A DNA stretch of 31,282 bases from a virus, in the IMG/VR virus record IMGVR_UViG_3300034101_001443, positions 1-31,282 of that record; one strand, written 5' to 3'. Shown one piece after another: positions 1-31,282 of the stretch; the stretch's first letter is position 1, and each line of letters begins with the position of its first letter. Both the position numbers and the translations under genes were made by a program. The notes under the pieces are model-generated. The model ran no database searches and was not told the DNA's origin. It saw only the letters and a list, made by a program, of their open reading frames with translations.

Positions 1-602
1 ATAATCGACTGGAGAACCTGAAGCTCTATAAAAGTTGGTCTGCTCACATGAAAGACCACCATCAAGCGGCAAGAGCCAACCCAGACGTTCTCGCAAAAGT
101 TCGTCAAGCCGCTGAAAACCCAGACGTATCTTTTGCGGTATTGGGAATGAGTCCGACAACTGTTCGTCAGATTTGTGTTGAGCATGATATTCGTTGGATT
201 CGTCGTGGCCGTGGCGCTCGTGCTTTTGCTTTAACCGAACAGTCGGTGCGTGAAGCGCTACAGGGACGGACAACGTTGGAAGCTGCTGCAAAGTTGGGTT
301 GTCATCCAATGACTCTTTACAATAAGTTTTCCCATCTTCTAAACAAGCGAACCAAGCCTGGTGCTTTAGACCCTTATATGCGGGAAATATACGATCTGCG
401 TTACAAGCAGATAAAGCCCATAGCCGAGATTGCTTATCAATATGGCGTTTCAGAGACTTGTGTTGCTCGGAGTCTCCAGCGGTGGAAAAAACTCCGTGTG
501 CCGTCAAAACAGGGTGCCAAATGGGATTTTTCTGACGCCCCACCTCGGTGCCGTCCTGGTCCAAAACCTGGCTTTCGACACAAGGCGCAAGATAAGGCGT
601 AG
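1..602 (+). CDS. HNH-homing-endonuclease-like protein with several HTH segments, antisense to the TerL intein; 5' end off window
   Basis: The frame is open from base 3, upstream of the first ATG (48), and the upstream residues look coding. They read NRLENLKLYKSWSAHMKDHH, which matches the end of HNH homing-endonuclease domains (N-x-x-x-N-L followed by S-x-x-H-M-x-x-H). The true start and the catalytic His are therefore off the window, and the ATG at 48 is probably internal. Three helix-turn-helix-like stretches follow: around bases 120-200 (FAVLGMSPTTVRQICVEH), 265-345 (LEAAAKLGCHPMTLYNKF) and 410-490 (IAEIAYQYGVSETCVARSL). HNH homing enzymes commonly carry such C-terminal DNA-binding modules. 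The last 35 or so codons are Pro/Lys/Arg rich and overlap the intein block B region on the other strand. The HTH part is convincing; the HNH assignment rests on a short visible piece. Confidence 0.7.
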   Translation, partial: NRLENLKLYKSWSAHMKDHHQAARANPDVLAKVRQAAENPDVSFAVLGMSPTTVRQICVEHDIRWIRRGRGARAFALTEQSVREALQGRTTLEAAAKLGCHPMTLYNKFSHLLNKRTKPGALDPYMREIYDLRYKQIKPIAEIAYQYGVSETCVARSLQRWKKLRVPSKQGAKWDFSDAPPRCRPGPKPGFRHKAQDKA

Positions 603-3600: not shown

Positions 3601-3950
3601 CAAAAATTAGAGACCTAGCTACTGAATGGTGTAAGGCAAATAACCTAGATATTGATTCTTATGATGCTTGGGTGAATACGGAAGGTTATCAGCAGGGCTA
3701 TCACCAGGGTAGGGCTAACGGGTTAAGAGATGGTTATCTGCTAGCAATTCAACAAAACTCTAATTTGCTACTAGTTGGAGAGTGGATTGACGCTAAGGTG
3801 AACATGCCACCTGAAAACACCTGGTGCCTAGTTGACTCTGACGAAGGTGTAATGAGCGCCTTCTACCATGGCGATGATACTTGGTCGGAAGGCGGTATAG
3901 CTTGGATAGAATACTGGATGCCCTTACCAAAAGCTCCAAAACGGTCGTAG
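3597..3950 (+). CDS. DUF551-domain protein
   Basis: 117 residues. I use ATG 3597, which overlaps the previous TGA (ATGA) after AAAGGAAAAGAA; an upstream ATG at 3576 would overlap the preceding gene by 25 bases. The C-terminal half, from GEWIDAKVNMPPEN to WIEYWMPLPKAP, has the typical DUF551 layout: W-I-x-x-x-x-x-x-P near the start and a closing Y/H-W-M-P-L-P. The N-terminal 50 residues contain GYQQGYHQGRANGLRDGY, a short Gly/Tyr repeat. DUF551 proteins are common in phage genomes and have no established function. A second one is encoded at 8469-8873. Confidence 0.8.
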   Translation: MTKIRDLATEWCKANNLDIDSYDAWVNTEGYQQGYHQGRANGLRDGYLLAIQQNSNLLLVGEWIDAKVNMPPENTWCLVDSDEGVMSAFYHGDDTWSEGGIAWIEYWMPLPKAPKRS

Positions 3951-3968
3951 TGGCATTATCCTTCGTAG

Positions 3969-4020
3969 CCTAGGGATACCCTACCCCAGCCTATTATCTC
4001 TCAACCTTGGGCATCCTAGG
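3969..4020. terminator. Possible bidirectional terminator between convergent genes
   Basis: An imperfect inverted repeat, CCTAGGGATACCC (3969-3981) and GGGCATCCTAGG (4009-4020), sits between the end of the DUF551 gene and the end of the opposite-strand initiator gene. The arms pair with one bulge and one mismatch. There is no U-run on either side, so termination is uncertain. Confidence 0.3.
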
Positions 4021-4032
4021 GGCTTTAAGAGG

Positions 4033-4533
4033 CTACTCAGGTATGTCGCTGTAGTCTACCTGCTTATTAAGCAAAGATTTCTTAAAATTTAAATAAGCTT
4101 CTTTTTCAGCAGCTAGGTTCTTAGCTAATAGTTCTTTATCTTGTGTTTCTTTATAAGAGTTTATTTGTAATGTGTTTCTTTGTATGTGTTCATTTTGAAC
4201 AGCCTGAGAGTTCATTTTGAACACCCTAGCCTGTTCATTTTGAACAGCTTGGCTGTTCATTTTGAACAGCTTGCTAGTGTGCAAAAACCGCTTGTTTCCG
4301 TTTCTTGTTATGCTTAGATGACCTGACTTGGTTAACCGCTGAAATAATCGGTGTAGTGTAGTCTCAGAGATACCTAGCTGCTTAGCAATGTACGGTCGAC
4401 TAGCGAAACATTCTTTGTTCTGTGTTTCGTACTCCTTAACGTACGCTATAAGAATAGCGGCTTCAGGGCCAAGTTCTCGGAGTAGTTGCTTGTTTAGCTT
4501 GTAAAAAGATGCGGTTTTAGGTAATTTACCCAT
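4033..4533 (-). CDS. Lambda-O-like replication initiator (winged HTH) carrying iterons in its gene
   Basis: 166 residues, on the strand opposite to its neighbours. The N-terminal 90 residues form a winged-helix pattern (ALLIAY-type helix EAAILIAYVKEYET, then RPYIAKQLGISETTLHRLFQRL, then a wing SGHLSITRNGNKR), as in HTH_36-type initiators of phages and plasmids. A linker follows in which the peptide FKMNSQAVQNE occurs twice, encoded by four palindromic DNA repeats (4187-4268). The C-terminus is Lys/Glu rich and helical. The start ATG has AGGAACT upstream. Lambda O has the same plan: N-terminal DNA-binding domain and origin repeats inside its own gene, with the C-terminal part recruiting the helicase loader. 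No loader gene is seen here. It could instead be a plain regulator. Confidence 0.65.
   Translation of the reverse strand: MGKLPKTASFYKLNKQLLRELGPEAAILIAYVKEYETQNKECFASRPYIAKQLGISETTLHRLFQRLTKSGHLSITRNGNKRFLHTSKLFKMNSQAVQNEQARVFKMNSQAVQNEHIQRNTLQINSYKETQDKELLAKNLAAEKEAYLNFKKSLLNKQVDYSDIPE
4064..4186. other. AT-rich stretch beside the iterons (candidate DNA-unwinding element)
   Basis: This stretch lies on the 3' side of the iterons within the initiator gene and has runs such as CTTAAAATTTAAATAAGCTT and TTCTTTATAAGAGTTTATTT. In lambda the AT-rich melting region likewise follows the O-binding repeats inside gene O. Function as an origin is inferred from this layout. Confidence 0.5.
4187..4268. 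repeat. Four phased palindromic iterons (candidate replication origin)
   Basis: TGTTCATTTTGAACA occurs at 4187-4201, 4232-4246 and 4254-4268, with a one-mismatch copy at 4209-4223. Each is a perfect inverted repeat, TGTTCA-TTT-TGAACA (the second copy lacks the outer pair). The starts are 22, 23 and 22 bases apart, about two helical turns, so all copies face the same side of the DNA. They lie within the coding part of the winged-helix gene. This is the geometry of initiator-binding iterons. An operator array for the same protein is the alternative. Confidence 0.75.
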
Positions 4534-4549
4534 ATAGTTCCTATAAAAG

Positions 4550-4584
4550 CCCCGTTTTACTTTCGCTGGTAGACGGGGTTTTTT
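4550..4584 (+). terminator. Rho-independent terminator, plus strand
   Basis: CCCCGT (4550-4555) pairs with ACGGGG (4573-4578) around a 17-base loop, followed directly by six T residues (4579-4584). It would stop plus-strand transcription from P1 after it has crossed the opposite-strand initiator gene, and promoter P2 lies 72 bases further on. On the minus strand the same hairpin lies in the leader of the initiator gene. Confidence 0.65.
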
Positions 4585-4597
4585 GTTATCTCAGCTA

Positions 4598-4626
4598 GGT
4601 ATACGCTCCTCGAAACAAACCCTCAA
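4598..4626 (-). promoter_or_regulatory. Possible minus-strand promoter for the initiator gene
   Basis: Read on the minus strand, TTGAGG (4621-4626) and TATACC (4598-4603) are 17 bases apart, 65 bases upstream of the initiator start. Each box matches the sigma70 consensus at four of six positions, so this is a weak call. Confidence 0.35.
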
Positions 4627-4655
4627 GTTATTTTCAAATAATCCGAAATAATTGC

Positions 4656-4684
4656 TGTACTCAGTGCATCATAGTATGTACTAT
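4656..4684 (+). promoter_or_regulatory. Early promoter P2, related in sequence to P1
   Basis: TGTACT (4656-4661), then 17 bases, then TACTAT (4679-4684). The -35 and spacer (CTGTACTCAGTGCATCATA) match P1 at most positions, and CTGTGG follows the -10 in both. It lies 53 bases upstream of the next early gene and beyond a terminator, so it should restart plus-strand transcription. Confidence 0.55.
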
Positions 4685-4736
4685 TGAGCTGTGGACAGTA
4701 GCCTTTGGGCGAATAACTAACTAAGGAGATAAATAT

Positions 4737-5090
4737 ATGAAATATATTACTGTTGAATTGGACGTGTTGAGGAATGCAAGCGGTTCAGATTGTACTTTAG
4801 GCGGGGTTTCATCAAAACATAGTAAAGTTGTAATGCTTATTCCCGACACTTTGTCCGACATAGTTGAGCGAGTGGGAGGCAAATTAAAAACCTTAGAGAT
4901 TTTGCGCCCTGCCGATAATTGGGTTGTTTTGAGTAAAAAAACAGTATTTTCTGAGCCTTATTATTTTCTCAAGCCTTATAATGAGACTCGTTGGTGCATG
5001 ATGGGAGGCAATTTTGCCTATAGTTGCGGAAACGGTTTCTGCGAAATTGTAGGTTATCCGTTGCCAATTCATGACAGAGTGGAGGCGTAA
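4737..5090 (+). CDS. Early protein, unknown function
   Basis: 117 residues. ATG 4737 is preceded by TAAGGAGATAAATAT, a strong Shine-Dalgarno. Beta-rich, starting MKYITVELDVLRNASGSDC; later parts include PADNWVVLSKKTVFSEPYYF and GNFAYSCGNGFCEIVGY. Three or four Cys residues are scattered, with no clear metal motif. It is the first gene after promoter P2 and is followed two bases later by the next gene. No family is recognised. Confidence 0.75.
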   Translation: MKYITVELDVLRNASGSDCTLGGVSSKHSKVVMLIPDTLSDIVERVGGKLKTLEILRPADNWVVLSKKTVFSEPYYFLKPYNETRWCMMGGNFAYSCGNGFCEIVGYPLPIHDRVEA

Positions 5091-5092
5091 CC

Positions 5093-5389
5093 ATGGACAT
5101 AGAGGAAAAAGTACAAACATTTATAGACCTAAACACTCGTGGGAATGATTACCCGACGGCCATTTGGCTATGTTTTGACGATTACAAAGCGCTACGACTT
5201 GGTTTGCTTGCCTACTATAAGGAGGTAGGGAAACCCCCAGTAACTTGGGATCAAGAATGGATTAAAAAAGGTTATCACGGCATCGGATTTAGTGGGGCAA
5301 ACTGTTATTTGAAAGAAGATGCAGAGCCGCTACCCGATACCGTTGAAAATATTCAGCGATGGCAAAATATACCGCCAAAGGAGGCATAA
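5093..5389 (+). CDS. Early protein, unknown function
   Basis: 98 residues; its start lies two bases after the previous stop and it has GGAGG upstream. The sequence is acidic and aromatic, with YPTAIWLCFDDYKALRLGLL, probably a strand followed by a helix, then KPPVTWDQEWIKKGYHGIGF. No motif is recognised. It is part of the P2 operon, with the next gene beginning three bases after its stop. Confidence 0.75.
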   Translation: MDIEEKVQTFIDLNTRGNDYPTAIWLCFDDYKALRLGLLAYYKEVGKPPVTWDQEWIKKGYHGIGFSGANCYLKEDAEPLPDTVENIQRWQNIPPKEA

Positions 5390-5391
5390 TT

Positions 5392-5715
5392 ATGAACACG
5401 AAAAAATTACTATTAGCTATATTAGCACTCCCAGCCCCAGCAATCGGGCAGCTTCCAAGCCCGTACGCGCCCCAAGGAGCGCCAATCGTGGTGCAGCCTG
5501 GCTATGGGGTGGTTATGCCGCCTGCAAGCCCCTACAGGCTGCCAGAAAACCCCTACGGGACCGGCTACAGTGTCGTGACACGGCAGCGCATGGATCGGGA
5601 TATGACAGACTCGGAAACAGTGACATCAATACGGCCTAACGATGCTTGGGGGAACCCAATAAAGCCCATTTGGGAAATATTGGAGGATGCCGGAGATGGA
5701 GATTGGGAAGATTAA
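5392..5715 (+). CDS. Exported proline-rich early protein
   Basis: 107 residues from ATG 5392, preceded by AAAGGAGGCATAATT, an excellent ribosome site; the longer frame from 5359 lies inside the previous gene. The N-terminus MNTKKLLLAILALPAPAIGQ is a classical signal peptide: Lys pair, hydrophobic core, then a likely cleavage after AIG. There is no lipobox Cys. The mature part is Pro/Tyr/Gly rich (PSPYAPQGAP, PPASPYRLPENPYGTGY) and ends with acidic residues. In an early operon an exported protein could block superinfection or alter the envelope, but that is a guess. Confidence 0.7.
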   Translation: MNTKKLLLAILALPAPAIGQLPSPYAPQGAPIVVQPGYGVVMPPASPYRLPENPYGTGYSVVTRQRMDRDMTDSETVTSIRPNDAWGNPIKPIWEILEDAGDGDWED

Positions 5716-5790
5716 CCGATTGCACTGTAACCAGCGTGATGATACTACTGGCAACAGGCTGGAAACAGTCGTAACAACAAGGAGACAACA

Positions 5791-6018
5791 ATGCGAGTTA
5801 TTAAAGTAAACGGGTTACGATACACCCTGGAAACACGGGGCCACGAGTTTGAAGTAATGGCAAGCTATGACCGCGACGGTAAACTGCAATTTGACCCCGT
5901 CGATGGTTGGAACGAGTTAGAGGCTAACACTAATTGCTGCGGGGAGGCGCTGTTGGAGGATATCGACGATGCAATCTACAACGCAACTCCCGAACTGTGG
6001 CAGGTGGAAGCCGTATGA
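5791..6018 (+). CDS. Small early protein, unknown function
   Basis: 75 residues, with ACAAGGAGACAACA before the ATG. It begins MRVIKVNGLRYTLETRGHEF, a likely beta-hairpin, and has an acidic C-terminal half with one CC pair. It overlaps the next mini-gene by four bases (ATGA). No family is recognised. The 75 bases before it hold no gene that I can support. Confidence 0.7.
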   Translation: MRVIKVNGLRYTLETRGHEFEVMASYDRDGKLQFDPVDGWNELEANTNCCGEALLEDIDDAIYNATPELWQVEAV

Positions 6019-6095
6019 GTAACCACCAACTGTTTAGGTGTGAGTGCTGCGACTGGGAGGTCTGGACAGCCTGTGAAACAATTAAAAAGGGATAA
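6015..6095 (+). CDS. 26-residue Cys-rich mini-protein
   Basis: Starts at ATG 6015, overlapping the previous stop by four bases, and ends one base before the Bet start. The sequence MSNHQLFRCECCDWEVWTAC has four Cys (CxCC and a later C) and two Trp, suggesting a zinc knuckle. It is too short for most gene finders, but its position exactly fills the space between two real genes. The function is unknown. Confidence 0.5.
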   Translation: MSNHQLFRCECCDWEVWTACETIKKG

Positions 6096-6096
6096 C

Positions 6097-6939
6097 ATGA
6101 GCAAGGAACTAACAACTACATCGACAACTAGCCTGGAGATGCTTCACGCGCTCCGTAACACAGTAGCACCAGGGCTTACAGAGCCGGAGTTTCGGCTGTT
6201 TGCGGAGATGTGCCGCGCAACTGGCCTAAACCCTGCAACTAAGGAGATTTGGGCTATCAAAGCCGGTGGACGTTTGCAGCTTATGACGGGGATCAACGGG
6301 TTCCTGAAGATAGCTAACTCGCACCCGCAATTTGACGGCATGGAGGTCACTTTTGAATGGGATGGAAAGCAGCTTATTAGCAGTACGGTCAAAGTGTACC
6401 GCAAAGATAGGCGGTTCCCGTCCGTGGCCACGGCCTACTGGAATGAGTATGCAAAACAGACTCCAATTTGGAAGCAGATGCCTACGGTGATGCTTGCAAA
6501 GTGTGCCAAGTCGTTGGCGATTCGTGAGGCATTTATTCAAGAGCTTGGGGGACTCTACACAGCCGAAGAAATGCCTTCAGAGTATGGTGCAAGCCGAGTA
6601 GACACCAGTACAGGCGAGGTAATAACAGCTAAGGAATACAAGGCATCGCAGAAGGCCGCACAAGCCGCTGCAATCGACGATTTCAAGGCTGACCAACTGC
6701 CAGACTGGGATGCTCAAACTGTGCAAGCTGAGGCCGTTGTAGAGCCTACACGAGCCCAGCCGACGTACTACGATGTAAGAAGTCTGGACGAGAAGGCGCT
6801 CACAGCAGCAGAAAAATACCTGACTGACTGCGAAGCGAAGCAGATGGTGCCAGGGGTATGGAGGGCACCAATTCGGCTAAAGAAACTGACACAGTGCATA
6901 ACCGAGGATTGGAACGATGCAAATCATATACAAGCGTAA
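6097..6939 (+). CDS. bet: Bet/RecT-family ssDNA annealing protein
   Basis: 280 residues from ATG 6097, preceded by AAAAAGGGATAAC; a longer frame from 6040 overlaps the Cys-rich mini-gene. Promotes annealing of complementary single strands during phage recombination and replication. Family features include GLNPATKEIWAIK, LMTGINGFLKIANSHPQFDG, SVATAYWNEYAK, and PTVMLAKCAKSLAIREAFIQ followed by LGGLYTAEEM, all in the order of phage Bet proteins. The residues after about 180 (Ala-rich, acidic) form a variable tail that may bind partners. Length is near the lambda Beta size (about 260). No clear partner exonuclease is adjacent; the resolvase-like nuclease lies about 2.5 kb downstream. Confidence 0.92.
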   Translation: MSKELTTTSTTSLEMLHALRNTVAPGLTEPEFRLFAEMCRATGLNPATKEIWAIKAGGRLQLMTGINGFLKIANSHPQFDGMEVTFEWDGKQLISSTVKVYRKDRRFPSVATAYWNEYAKQTPIWKQMPTVMLAKCAKSLAIREAFIQELGGLYTAEEMPSEYGASRVDTSTGEVITAKEYKASQKAAQAAAIDDFKADQLPDWDAQTVQAEAVVEPTRAQPTYYDVRSLDEKALTAAEKYLTDCEAKQMVPGVWRAPIRLKKLTQCITEDWNDANHIQA

Positions 6940-6977
6940 ACGGAAGGCGCTCATTGAGCGCGCAAAAGGAGTAGTTA

Positions 6978-7157
6978 ATGAAGACCAAAAAAACACGGGA
7001 CGATACCCCCAGAGCCGGTTACTGCCGGTGGACAGTAATCGCAGACAAAGCTCTGGTGGAATACGTCAGGGAGTACGCCAGAAAACATCAGATTTATGTA
7101 GCGGATGTGGTGACTGATGCGCTCAGAGAATGGAAAAAACGAATTGGAAGCAATTAA
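6978..7157 (+). CDS. Small ribbon-helix-helix-like protein
   Basis: 59 residues from ATG 6978, with AAAAGGAGTAGTTA upstream, a strong Shine-Dalgarno. The N-terminus is basic (MKTKKTRDDTPRAG). WTVIADKALVEYVREYARKH, then YVADVVTDALREWKKRIG, resembles a short strand followed by two helices, the layout of ribbon-helix-helix DNA-binding proteins. It overlaps the next small gene by 41 bases in a different frame. The family call is by shape only. It could regulate the recombination operon. Confidence 0.6.
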   Translation: MKTKKTRDDTPRAGYCRWTVIADKALVEYVREYARKHQIYVADVVTDALREWKKRIGSN

Positions 7158-7275
7158 GGCAGCAATCAAACGCATAATCGACAGCTTCAAAAGCGACGAA
7201 AAACTCTCCGAGTTTGAGCGCGGTCAAGTTGACGGGTTGCGTTGGGTAGCTCAGATAATTGATGAAACTGATTGA
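7117..7275 (+). CDS. 52-residue helical protein, unknown function
   Basis: Starts at ATG 7117 inside the end of the preceding gene. The protein MRSENGKNELEAIKAAIKRI continues as a charged amphipathic helix and ends DGLRWVAQIIDETD. The upstream GGTGA could serve as a weak ribosome site, so expression by coupling is likely. The amphipathic pattern and good codon-like composition support it, but no family is recognised. Confidence 0.5.
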   Translation: MRSENGKNELEAIKAAIKRIIDSFKSDEKLSEFERGQVDGLRWVAQIIDETD

Positions 7276-29447: not shown

Positions 29448-31282
29448 TTATTTTCCGAATACATACCAGTTAGACGAAACTAAATAGTTACCAGAACATC
29501 CTGAGTAATATGTAGCCGATTCGCAGGATGACTGATCTCCGTAGCCGGTACAAGAGGCGTTGCCTCCGCAAGTCGAGCCATCCCAAACGCAGTTAGAGTA
29601 GTTTTGAGTGCAACCGCTTGTGCTGCCGCAAGTTGCTTCATTAAAACTGCTACACGCTTCTAATCGTCTAAACGGACTAACATGAACCCAATCTTTGTAG
29701 TTAGAAAGCGTATACGACGTTGTGTGATCTACTGTGTCGCCGGAGGACGGAACTAACACTACATCTGCGTTTGTGCTTGATGTGTTATAGATCCAGTAAT
29801 CTCTGTCAGGACAAGTAGTAATCGACGGAAGCGTCAAGGTGATTGCGGTCTGCCATGTGCATCCGGATTCAGCGTTACAGTTAGTCTGATCGTCGATTCC
29901 TCCGCACGATGCCGATCCGCTACAGGCTGCGCCGTAAACTCCAGTGCAGTTGCCAGTAGCATAGGTACCGTCGCAAGTGTAAGAATCGTAAGTACCTGAG
30001 CAACTGACGTACCACGAACCGCCGGTACACGCTCCCGTGCCGCTATCATACGAACAATATCCACCGCCGTTTGCTGCGTTACACGCTGTACCGTCACCAC
30101 CGCCATCCGAATAATTAGCGCAGTCGTCAAAGTTTTGCGTACAGCCGCTTGTACTACCACAAGCTGTTTCATTTAACGTCGAGCAATCTTGTGGATTGTT
30201 ATTCCAACTACATCCTGTTTGCCCCTCGCACGATGATTGATTATTGTTATAGACTGAGCAACTTGATTGCTCCCAAGTGCATCCGGTTTGACCTGTGCAT
30301 GATGACTCGTCGCCGTTATAAACAGAACAATCGTATCCGGCAAACCAACTACATCCACCGTGTGCGTCACGAGCAAGGCACGTCGCCTCGGTCGTGTAGG
30401 ATGAACAAGCGTTAGTAGGAGCGCCGGTACACGTTGCCGTTGACGGATCAACAATCCACTCGGTCGCTGTGTTGTCTAGCGTTTGGTTGGCGGTGATGTA
30501 TTTGACCTTGAGCGCCGTACCACCTTGGCTCATGAGCGTACTGCTCGGACTGGATGCGCCACCTGCGTTCACACCATTGAGGAAAGCTCCGTATCCGTAG
30601 TGAGTAAATGTGCTAGGATTATTGTAGCTGACTAAAGTGTTTGTAGCTTTGTGGTACACGGAAGCTCCGTTACCAGTGCCACCAATCCACGTTGACACCT
30701 CACCTGATGAAGTTGCGCCGATATGCGCTTGATTAGTTCCGCTAAATTGAAAATCGATCCAAGTGTACCCTCCGTTATTTTGTAGGCTTATGTGGCGGGT
30801 ATCCCCAGGAAGGCCATTATTTTTGATGCGGGACGTAATTGTGAGAACGCCGTCAGTATTGGAGTTGGAGGCAGCAATCTGTAAATCGCCTGTGCGAATA
30901 GTGCCGCCGACGTAAGTATTCAGGGAAACATCGTCGATGGTGAATCGAGCTGTATTCGACGGTGTAAACGTCAGGTTGGTAAAGTTACTGTTTGATGAAT
31001 TGGTTATAATACCACGATAAATATAAGTGCCATTTTGACTGAGATTTGCACCCCAGGTAAAGCCTTGATACGCAGCCGACACTGTTCCAGCGGTAAGGTT
31101 GGAAATCGTAAACTTTAGTTCCCAGCGATCTCCAAGAACTGGCGTGGTAATATTTTGGCTTAGTGCGCCGGTGCCATTTGCGTTATGACTTACTGCGTTA
31201 CTGCCATACGCCCAACCAGTGGGGAGAGTCCATCCTGATGCGTTGCCGCTAAAGGTACCATTCGTTATTTGTGTATTGACGC
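29448..31282 (-). CDS. Cys-rich fibre-like protein with jelly-roll-like N-terminus; N-terminus cut by window edge
   Basis: The frame is open to the right edge (about 610 residues visible); a GTG at 31080-31082 looks internal, because the residues before it are coding-like. They read NGTFSGNASGWTLPTGWAYG, then LGDRWELKFTISNLTAG, the pattern of a carbohydrate-binding jelly roll. A beta region follows, then from about residue 282 a stretch with 33 Cys in repeats such as NNQSSCEGQTGCSWNNN, CGSTSGCTQNFDDC and CGSTSGCTQNYSNC, similar to plexin-type Cys-rich repeats. Probably an adhesive virion fibre. The protein ends NYLVSSNWYVFGK. Confidence 0.75.
   Translation of the reverse strand, partial: VNTQITNGTFSGNASGWTLPTGWAYGSNAVSHNANGTGALSQNITTPVLGDRWELKFTISNLTAGTVSAAYQGFTWGANLSQNGTYIYRGIITNSSNSNFTNLTFTPSNTARFTIDDVSLNTYVGGTIRTGDLQIAASNSNTDGVLTITSRIKNNGLPGDTRHISLQNNGGYTWIDFQFSGTNQAHIGATSSGEVSTWIGGTGNGASVYHKATNTLVSYNNPSTFTHYGYGAFLNGVNAGGASSPSSTLMSQGGTALKVKYITANQTLDNTATEWIVDPSTATCTGAPTNACSSYTTEATCLARDAHGGCSWFAGYDCSVYNGDESSCTGQTGCTWEQSSCSVYNNNQSSCEGQTGCSWNNNPQDCSTLNETACGSTSGCTQNFDDCANYSDGGGDGTACNAANGGGYCSYDSGTGACTGGSWYVSCSGTYDSYTCDGTYATGNCTGVYGAACSGSASCGGIDDQTNCNAESGCTWQTAITLTLPSITTCPDRDYWIYNTSSTNADVVLVPSSGDTVDHTTSYTLSNYKDWVHVSPFRRLEACSSFNEATCGSTSGCTQNYSNCVWDGSTCGGNASCTGYGDQSSCESATYYSGCSGNYLVSSNWYVFGK

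Follow-up and report, generated by a model that had tools for sequence, protein, structure and literature searches.

The window analyzed here is the whole of the IMG/VR record IMGVR_UViG_3300034101_001443, a linear contig of 31,282 bp from an uncultivated virus that is truncated at both ends. Its left end falls inside a plus-strand HNH endonuclease gene, which lies antisense within the intein of a gene for the terminase large subunit (TerL); a full-length relative of the latter (P0005) is a terminase large subunit by PHROG match. On the minus strand, the TerL frame is open from a GTG start codon at position 1104 down to base 1 and comprises the N-extein (721-1104), with the Walker A motif GGARGGGKT and the last residues EKYQGQNL, followed by the N-terminal 240 codons of the intein (1-720, with Cys1 at 718-720). 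The last ~105 intein codons, including blocks F and G, lie beyond the contig edge and were taken from relatives. On the plus strand, positions 3-602 hold the C-terminal 199 codons of the HNH gene, with the stop codon TAG at 600-602 in the window sequence; this ORF is open at its 5' end, begins with NRLENL...HMKDHH, and corresponds to residues 79-277 of a 277-aa relative, its first residue being the Asn of the HNH motif. Given the position of Cys1, the ORF lies entirely opposite intein codons, and the first-pass annotation was thus right to place an HNH-type ending antisense inside the intein. Circular closure of the window, considered as a way to regain the start of the HNH gene, was ruled out, as the right end encodes an unrelated tail-type protein. 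The contig end at 29448-31280 (minus strand) encodes a Cys-rich repeat protein (C..YN..SSC.GQTGC.W) with no Pfam or PHROG match. Like the window at position 1, the contigs L052, L053, L054, and L055 stop within the TerL intein, which is expected if assembly breaks where intein-plus and intein-minus strains mix.

The missing 5' part of the HNH gene was reconstructed from relatives found by an IMG/VR scan with the plus-strand ORF as query, which returned 23 relatives at 74-97% identity. The contig L003, with 98% DNA identity to window positions 1-602, shows the full HNH motif, and in all relatives that reach far enough the gene encodes 277-279 aa, starts with M[SKT][LI]PSFQKQ, and carries the full motif. 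The first-pass annotation had named the lack of the His and Asn of an HNH site left of base 1 as a ground for dropping its proposal; both are present in the relatives, and residues H70, H71, N79, N83, H93, and H97 are invariant in the HNH alignment. Full relatives match HNH_3 (PF13392; 38 bits against a cut-off of 24.8, E 1e-9) and, C-terminal to it, HTH_23/HTH_28 above the Pfam cut-off, which constitute a separate DNA-binding region (138-497, plus strand, in the window). The three HTH segments noticed at first reading gain Pfam support at residues of about 103-145 (weak), 155-190, and 199-243; in the DNA-binding region as mapped onto the window, the first Pfam segment covers residues 124-142. 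The protein also matches PHROG families of HNH endonucleases, with E values down to 1e-17. In its AlphaFold model the HTH part is all-helical and of low confidence, too poor for a structure search. In complete relatives, the 277-aa HNH_3 and HTH gene lies wholly within the 345-aa intein on the opposite strand, and in most copies it begins 83 nt from the intein C-terminal end and stops 118 nt from the N-terminal end, in agreement with the earlier view of a homing gene that is physically in the intein yet separate. Judged by its domains, the protein is a candidate homing enzyme that may cut or nick the element-free TerL allele.

In all complete copies TerL is continuous, with one unbroken frame that runs from the N-extein through the intein into the C-extein, and the intein has a constant length of 345 aa without a single indel across 22 copies. 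It starts with CVAVGT[PR]I.MADG, where the Cys is invariant (block A), and contains block B in the form NPIWHPVLT or HPVWHPVLT, with the His present and Pro in place of the usual Thr at -3. Blocks F and G read NHYISDCGLINKN|S, with the terminal Asn present and S, T, or C at position +1 in the groups examined, and the penultimate intein residue in the close family is Lys instead of His. The Hint fold was assigned through the relative P0006, which matches the gp41-1 intein (6riz) with a VIA Z of 14.6 over 120 residues. The AlphaFold model of the intein has low overall confidence; residues 1-68 and about 310-330 alone are modeled confidently, and the middle is disordered. The model contains a strand at 149-157 that matches the LSVPVALH segment. 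The in-frame region between blocks B and F, where a canonical homing intein carries its endonuclease, has no endonuclease match and is predicted to be disordered. The blocks and the modeled fold are those of a class 1 intein, which would be expected to splice.

To assess the coding of both strands, we shuffled synonymous codons within each HNH gene and counted the stop codons expected in the antisense intein frame; in the register of this overlap, the wobble position of every HNH codon pairs with the second position of an intein codon. The window copy has no antisense stops against 7.8 expected, and none of 2000 synonymous permutations reaches zero. Likewise, 33 copies contain no intein-frame stop over the HNH gene against 336 expected (~11 per copy), and 27 TerL lineages (clusters at 80%), with GC contents of 0.40-0.63, contain none against 199 expected; both sums pool related copies and are not independent trials, and most single lineages taken alone give 0/1000 shuffles. 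The remaining two antisense frames of the same 33 copies contain 387 and 545 stops. The pattern of variation is equally informative. Intein third positions vary outside the HNH gene (0.407 and 0.257), in the linker it is the intein second positions, which are the HNH wobble positions, that vary (0.253), and the rhythm switches exactly at the overlap. Synonymous variation of the HNH gene is 0.302 opposite the free linker (intein residues 167-290), and it falls to 0.000 over block B (502-528, minus strand, opposite the HNH C-terminal region), to 0.032 over intein residues 150-162 (VPVxLH), which include the strand LSVPVALH (250-273, minus strand, opposite HNH residues ~162-169), and to 0.066 over the C-terminal strands. 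The stop depletion, the wobble rhythm, the frozen sites, and the Hint match together imply that both reading frames are under selection.

These data bear on two simpler readings of the locus. According to the first, the intein is an ordinary intein or mini-intein and the plus-strand ORF is either a shadow that codes for nothing or what is left of a decayed gene. GC-rich genes do carry long antisense shadow ORFs, and several such ORFs were listed in our scan for the wider class; however, the HNH_3 and HTH domains exceed the Pfam cut-offs, the plus strand has the wobble periodicity of an HNH coding sequence, and the ORF and its catalytic residues are intact over 27 lineages spanning GC contents of 0.40-0.63. 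Decay had been put forward at the outset as an outcome that would overturn the proposal, and the ORF has conserved homologues in dozens of contigs with no sign of it. The codon signature, the stop depletion, and the conserved homologues thus rule this reading out, and we leave it a negligible probability. According to the second, the insert is an intron that leaves the transcript by RNA splicing and carries an endonuclease gene on its antisense strand, and the sense frame is open by coincidence. Such genes do occur in group I introns (PMC9548176), but an incidental frame does not account for 0 stops against 336 expected, for the Hint motifs and fold, or for wobble sites frozen over Hint strands. 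Rfam searches gave no group I intron or other family at E<=1 in L002 2300-3800, and none at the gathering score in the window. The stop depletion and the missing Rfam match rule out the intron, to which we likewise assign almost no weight.

A subtler possibility is that the element is a former homing element, in which the HNH gene is now kept only since its mutations also hit the overlapping intein. The overlap does couple both genes, and some HNH residues face constrained Hint strands: the HTH region and both ends of the gene lie opposite them. The HNH catalytic domain, however, lies opposite the free linker (intein residues ~215-290), where the intein frame is unconstrained while the HNH residues of this whole domain are the conserved ones, and there are no nonsense alleles among 59 distinct HNH coding sequences. 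We therefore regard persistence by coupling as very unlikely.

With regard to expression, the antisense gene had been proposed to be read from early, plus-strand transcription, opposite to the late terminase. The plus-strand early block of the window starts at ~2612, downstream of the HNH stop codon and past several minus-strand genes; no early operon thus runs into the HNH gene, which would need its own promoter. A site resembling TTGATA-16-TATAAT is located 48 nt upstream of the HNH ATG in many close relatives, within codons for the last residues of the intein and outside the window. The ATA codon that supports a conserved -10 element is found in 29/30 members of the close group versus 13/27 across lineages; the argument is thus strong for close relatives but does not hold more widely, and the promoter is a suggestion only. 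The site is also partly dictated by the conserved intein residues NHYI, and several lineages score no better than shuffles. We saw no clear or conserved Shine-Dalgarno sequence at the HNH start. Antisense expression of the gene is thus inferred, and its proposed source has shifted from the early block to a putative promoter inside the intein.

The distribution of the intein points to its being mobile. The site is uninterrupted (EKYQGQNL|SDCAIEEAGN) in 71 close relatives of TerL, and no other inteins were seen at this site; at the DNA level, the empty junction reads ..CAGAACCTG|TCAGAT.. in the intein-less example L118. In a tree of 86 C-exteins, 26 have the intein and 60 are empty, and intein presence changes at least 15 times on the TerL tree, with 10 changes forced by well-supported branches. 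In the pairs L013/L157 (95%) and L002/L118, the 1-kb C-flanks are 95-96% identical at the DNA level, and only one member of each pair has the intein. Common empty sites and near-identical phages that differ by the intein indicate that the intein is mobile, and such sporadic distribution is the pattern expected of active homing, which may well be its cause. The window also encodes, at 6040-6939 (plus strand), a Bet/RecT-like single-strand annealing protein (PHROG E 3e-39) that could supply the recombination step of homing.

The same distribution weighs on a further explanation, in which the antisense HNH protein is real and serves the phage, either as a packaging nuclease acting with the terminase or as a regulator, and is not the homing enzyme of the intein. 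A passage of PMC12613952 that cites Kala et al. (2014) reports HNH proteins encoded near terminase genes as packaging components, and the protein is rich in HTH segments; but 60 of the 86 close TerL relatives in the tree are without both the intein and the HNH gene, near-identical phages manage without it, and it is always found inside the intein. A service to the phage is thus unlikely, though of the explanations weighed here it keeps the most credit beside the homing one.

We conclude, with a probability of roughly 85%, that a mobile phage intein occupies TerL immediately before Walker B and that its homing endonuclease is encoded by a separate antisense gene in the intein coding sequence. 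In the proposed cycle, the HNH gene would be transcribed from the antisense strand, probably via a promoter within the intein, and the HNH-HTH protein would nick or cut the intein-less TerL genes of co-infecting phages at ..YQGQNL|S..; repair would then copy the intein and the nested HNH gene as one. On the sense strand, the TerL frame would be translated throughout, the stretch complementary to the HNH gene yielding a largely disordered linker, after which the two Hint halves would fold and the intein would excise itself from TerL.

Our literature search turned up no intein with an antisense endonuclease gene. A preprint on actinobacteriophage inteins of non-canonical architecture, whose title suggests related unusual layouts, may bear on priority. 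Dassa et al. in 2009 reportedly described split inteins in fractured genes, where a free-standing endonuclease gene lies between the intein halves. The separate endonuclease gene between two intein halves is common to both arrangements; however, the host gene there is in two pieces, whereas TerL and its intein form one continuous frame. According to PMC6801210, endonucleases sit in inteins as nested domains, at a single conserved point of insertion. Walker B is among the sites occupied by TerL inteins in mycobacteriophages, and LAGLIDADG domains are present in the two for which cutting was demonstrated (PMC5050341). The present element resembles canonical large inteins such as TerL1-b and TerL1-c of that study in its mobility, in its location in the terminase ATPase domain, in blocks A, B, F, and G, and, in DNA terms, in a nuclease between B and F; but their LAGLIDADG enzymes are fused in frame, whereas the nuclease here is an HNH enzyme with its own antisense gene, which extends past the canonical insertion point in both directions. 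The I-DsqI gene of Didymium, an antisense homing endonuclease gene in a nuclear group I intron of rDNA that is expressed and active (PMC9548176), is likewise encoded on the strand complementary to the gene that hosts the mobile element. That element is an RNA-spliced rDNA intron with no second protein through the same bases, while the TerL element codes for two and has no Rfam intron match. The ShiLan domain of mycobacteriophage methylase genes (Arsenault, Gosselin and Gogarten, 2025, PMC11855218) also hides an HNH out of frame: the insertion leaves the host frame open and encodes the endonuclease in an alternative one, and its distribution is sporadic and homing-like. The ShiLan HNH, however, is on the same strand and without a splicing domain, whereas the TerL element has its HNH on the opposite strand and a Hint intein with dual-coded strands. 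The arrangement departs from the textbook layout of homing inteins, with an in-frame endonuclease at one conserved site, and suggests that the enzyme for an intein's mobility can be encoded on the opposite strand with the splicing domain still under selection.

Scans with alignments of diverged inteins and HNH proteins extended the search to further antisense cases, down to about 26-30% HNH identity, as the first-pass annotation had suggested looking for TerL inteins of this kind in metagenomes. All but one antisense group are in TerL; there the inteins sit at the equivalent position, directly ahead of the (D/E)E of Walker B, and the register is identical. In the 27 TerL lineages, all of which come from uncultivated viruses, two enzymes are thus encoded antisense to each other over about 830 bp, a clear case of dual coding that is backed by comparative tests. 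Isolated phages gave only HNH-domain matches with at most about 68% query coverage, none of them seen nested in a TerL intein. Javan74 and GX15bay (annotation missing or uncertain) were considered as isolate members and rejected, since both loci are outside terminase genes. In scans of 84,980 bacterial and archaeal genomes, the close family had no match, and the broad family had a single HNH match that was weak and partial.

The second antisense case, found in L243 (3650-4792)/L315 and L316, is in an intein of another gene and has a different register, in which the shuffle test carries no information; the HNH of this case and the out-of-frame HNH of ShiLan are relatives with 38-41% identity. 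In five more intein groups with Hint blocks (L063 4684-7044; L232/L233; L237/L238/L242; L239/L240; L257), most or all of them in TerL, the HNH is on the same strand in a different frame, always +2. Altogether, it seems fairly probable that these elements form a class of phage homing inteins that is both old and widespread. The endonuclease gene of such an intein would run antisense through the splicing domain in one fixed register with its own promoter inside the intein, such that mobility and splicing are dual-coded and separately (perhaps early versus late) expressed; antisense or same-strand out-of-frame nesting may then be the rule for HNH enzymes in phage inteins. Since annotation pipelines discard one of two overlapping ORFs, "mini-inteins" in databases may conceal endonucleases. 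The class also opens tests on overlapping genes, on their origin, and on how a selfish gene nested in a late gene can keep a timing of its own. Some TerL genes host several elements: in L015 (minus-strand ORF 3643-7266), the antisense-HNH intein is accompanied by a second intein in Walker A with an in-frame LAGLIDADG-like segment (..LLQGLFDTDG..), and L262 (2484-6377, minus strand) apparently has three inteins in one TerL, namely in Walker A, at the antisense-HNH site, and near the C-terminal nuclease part.
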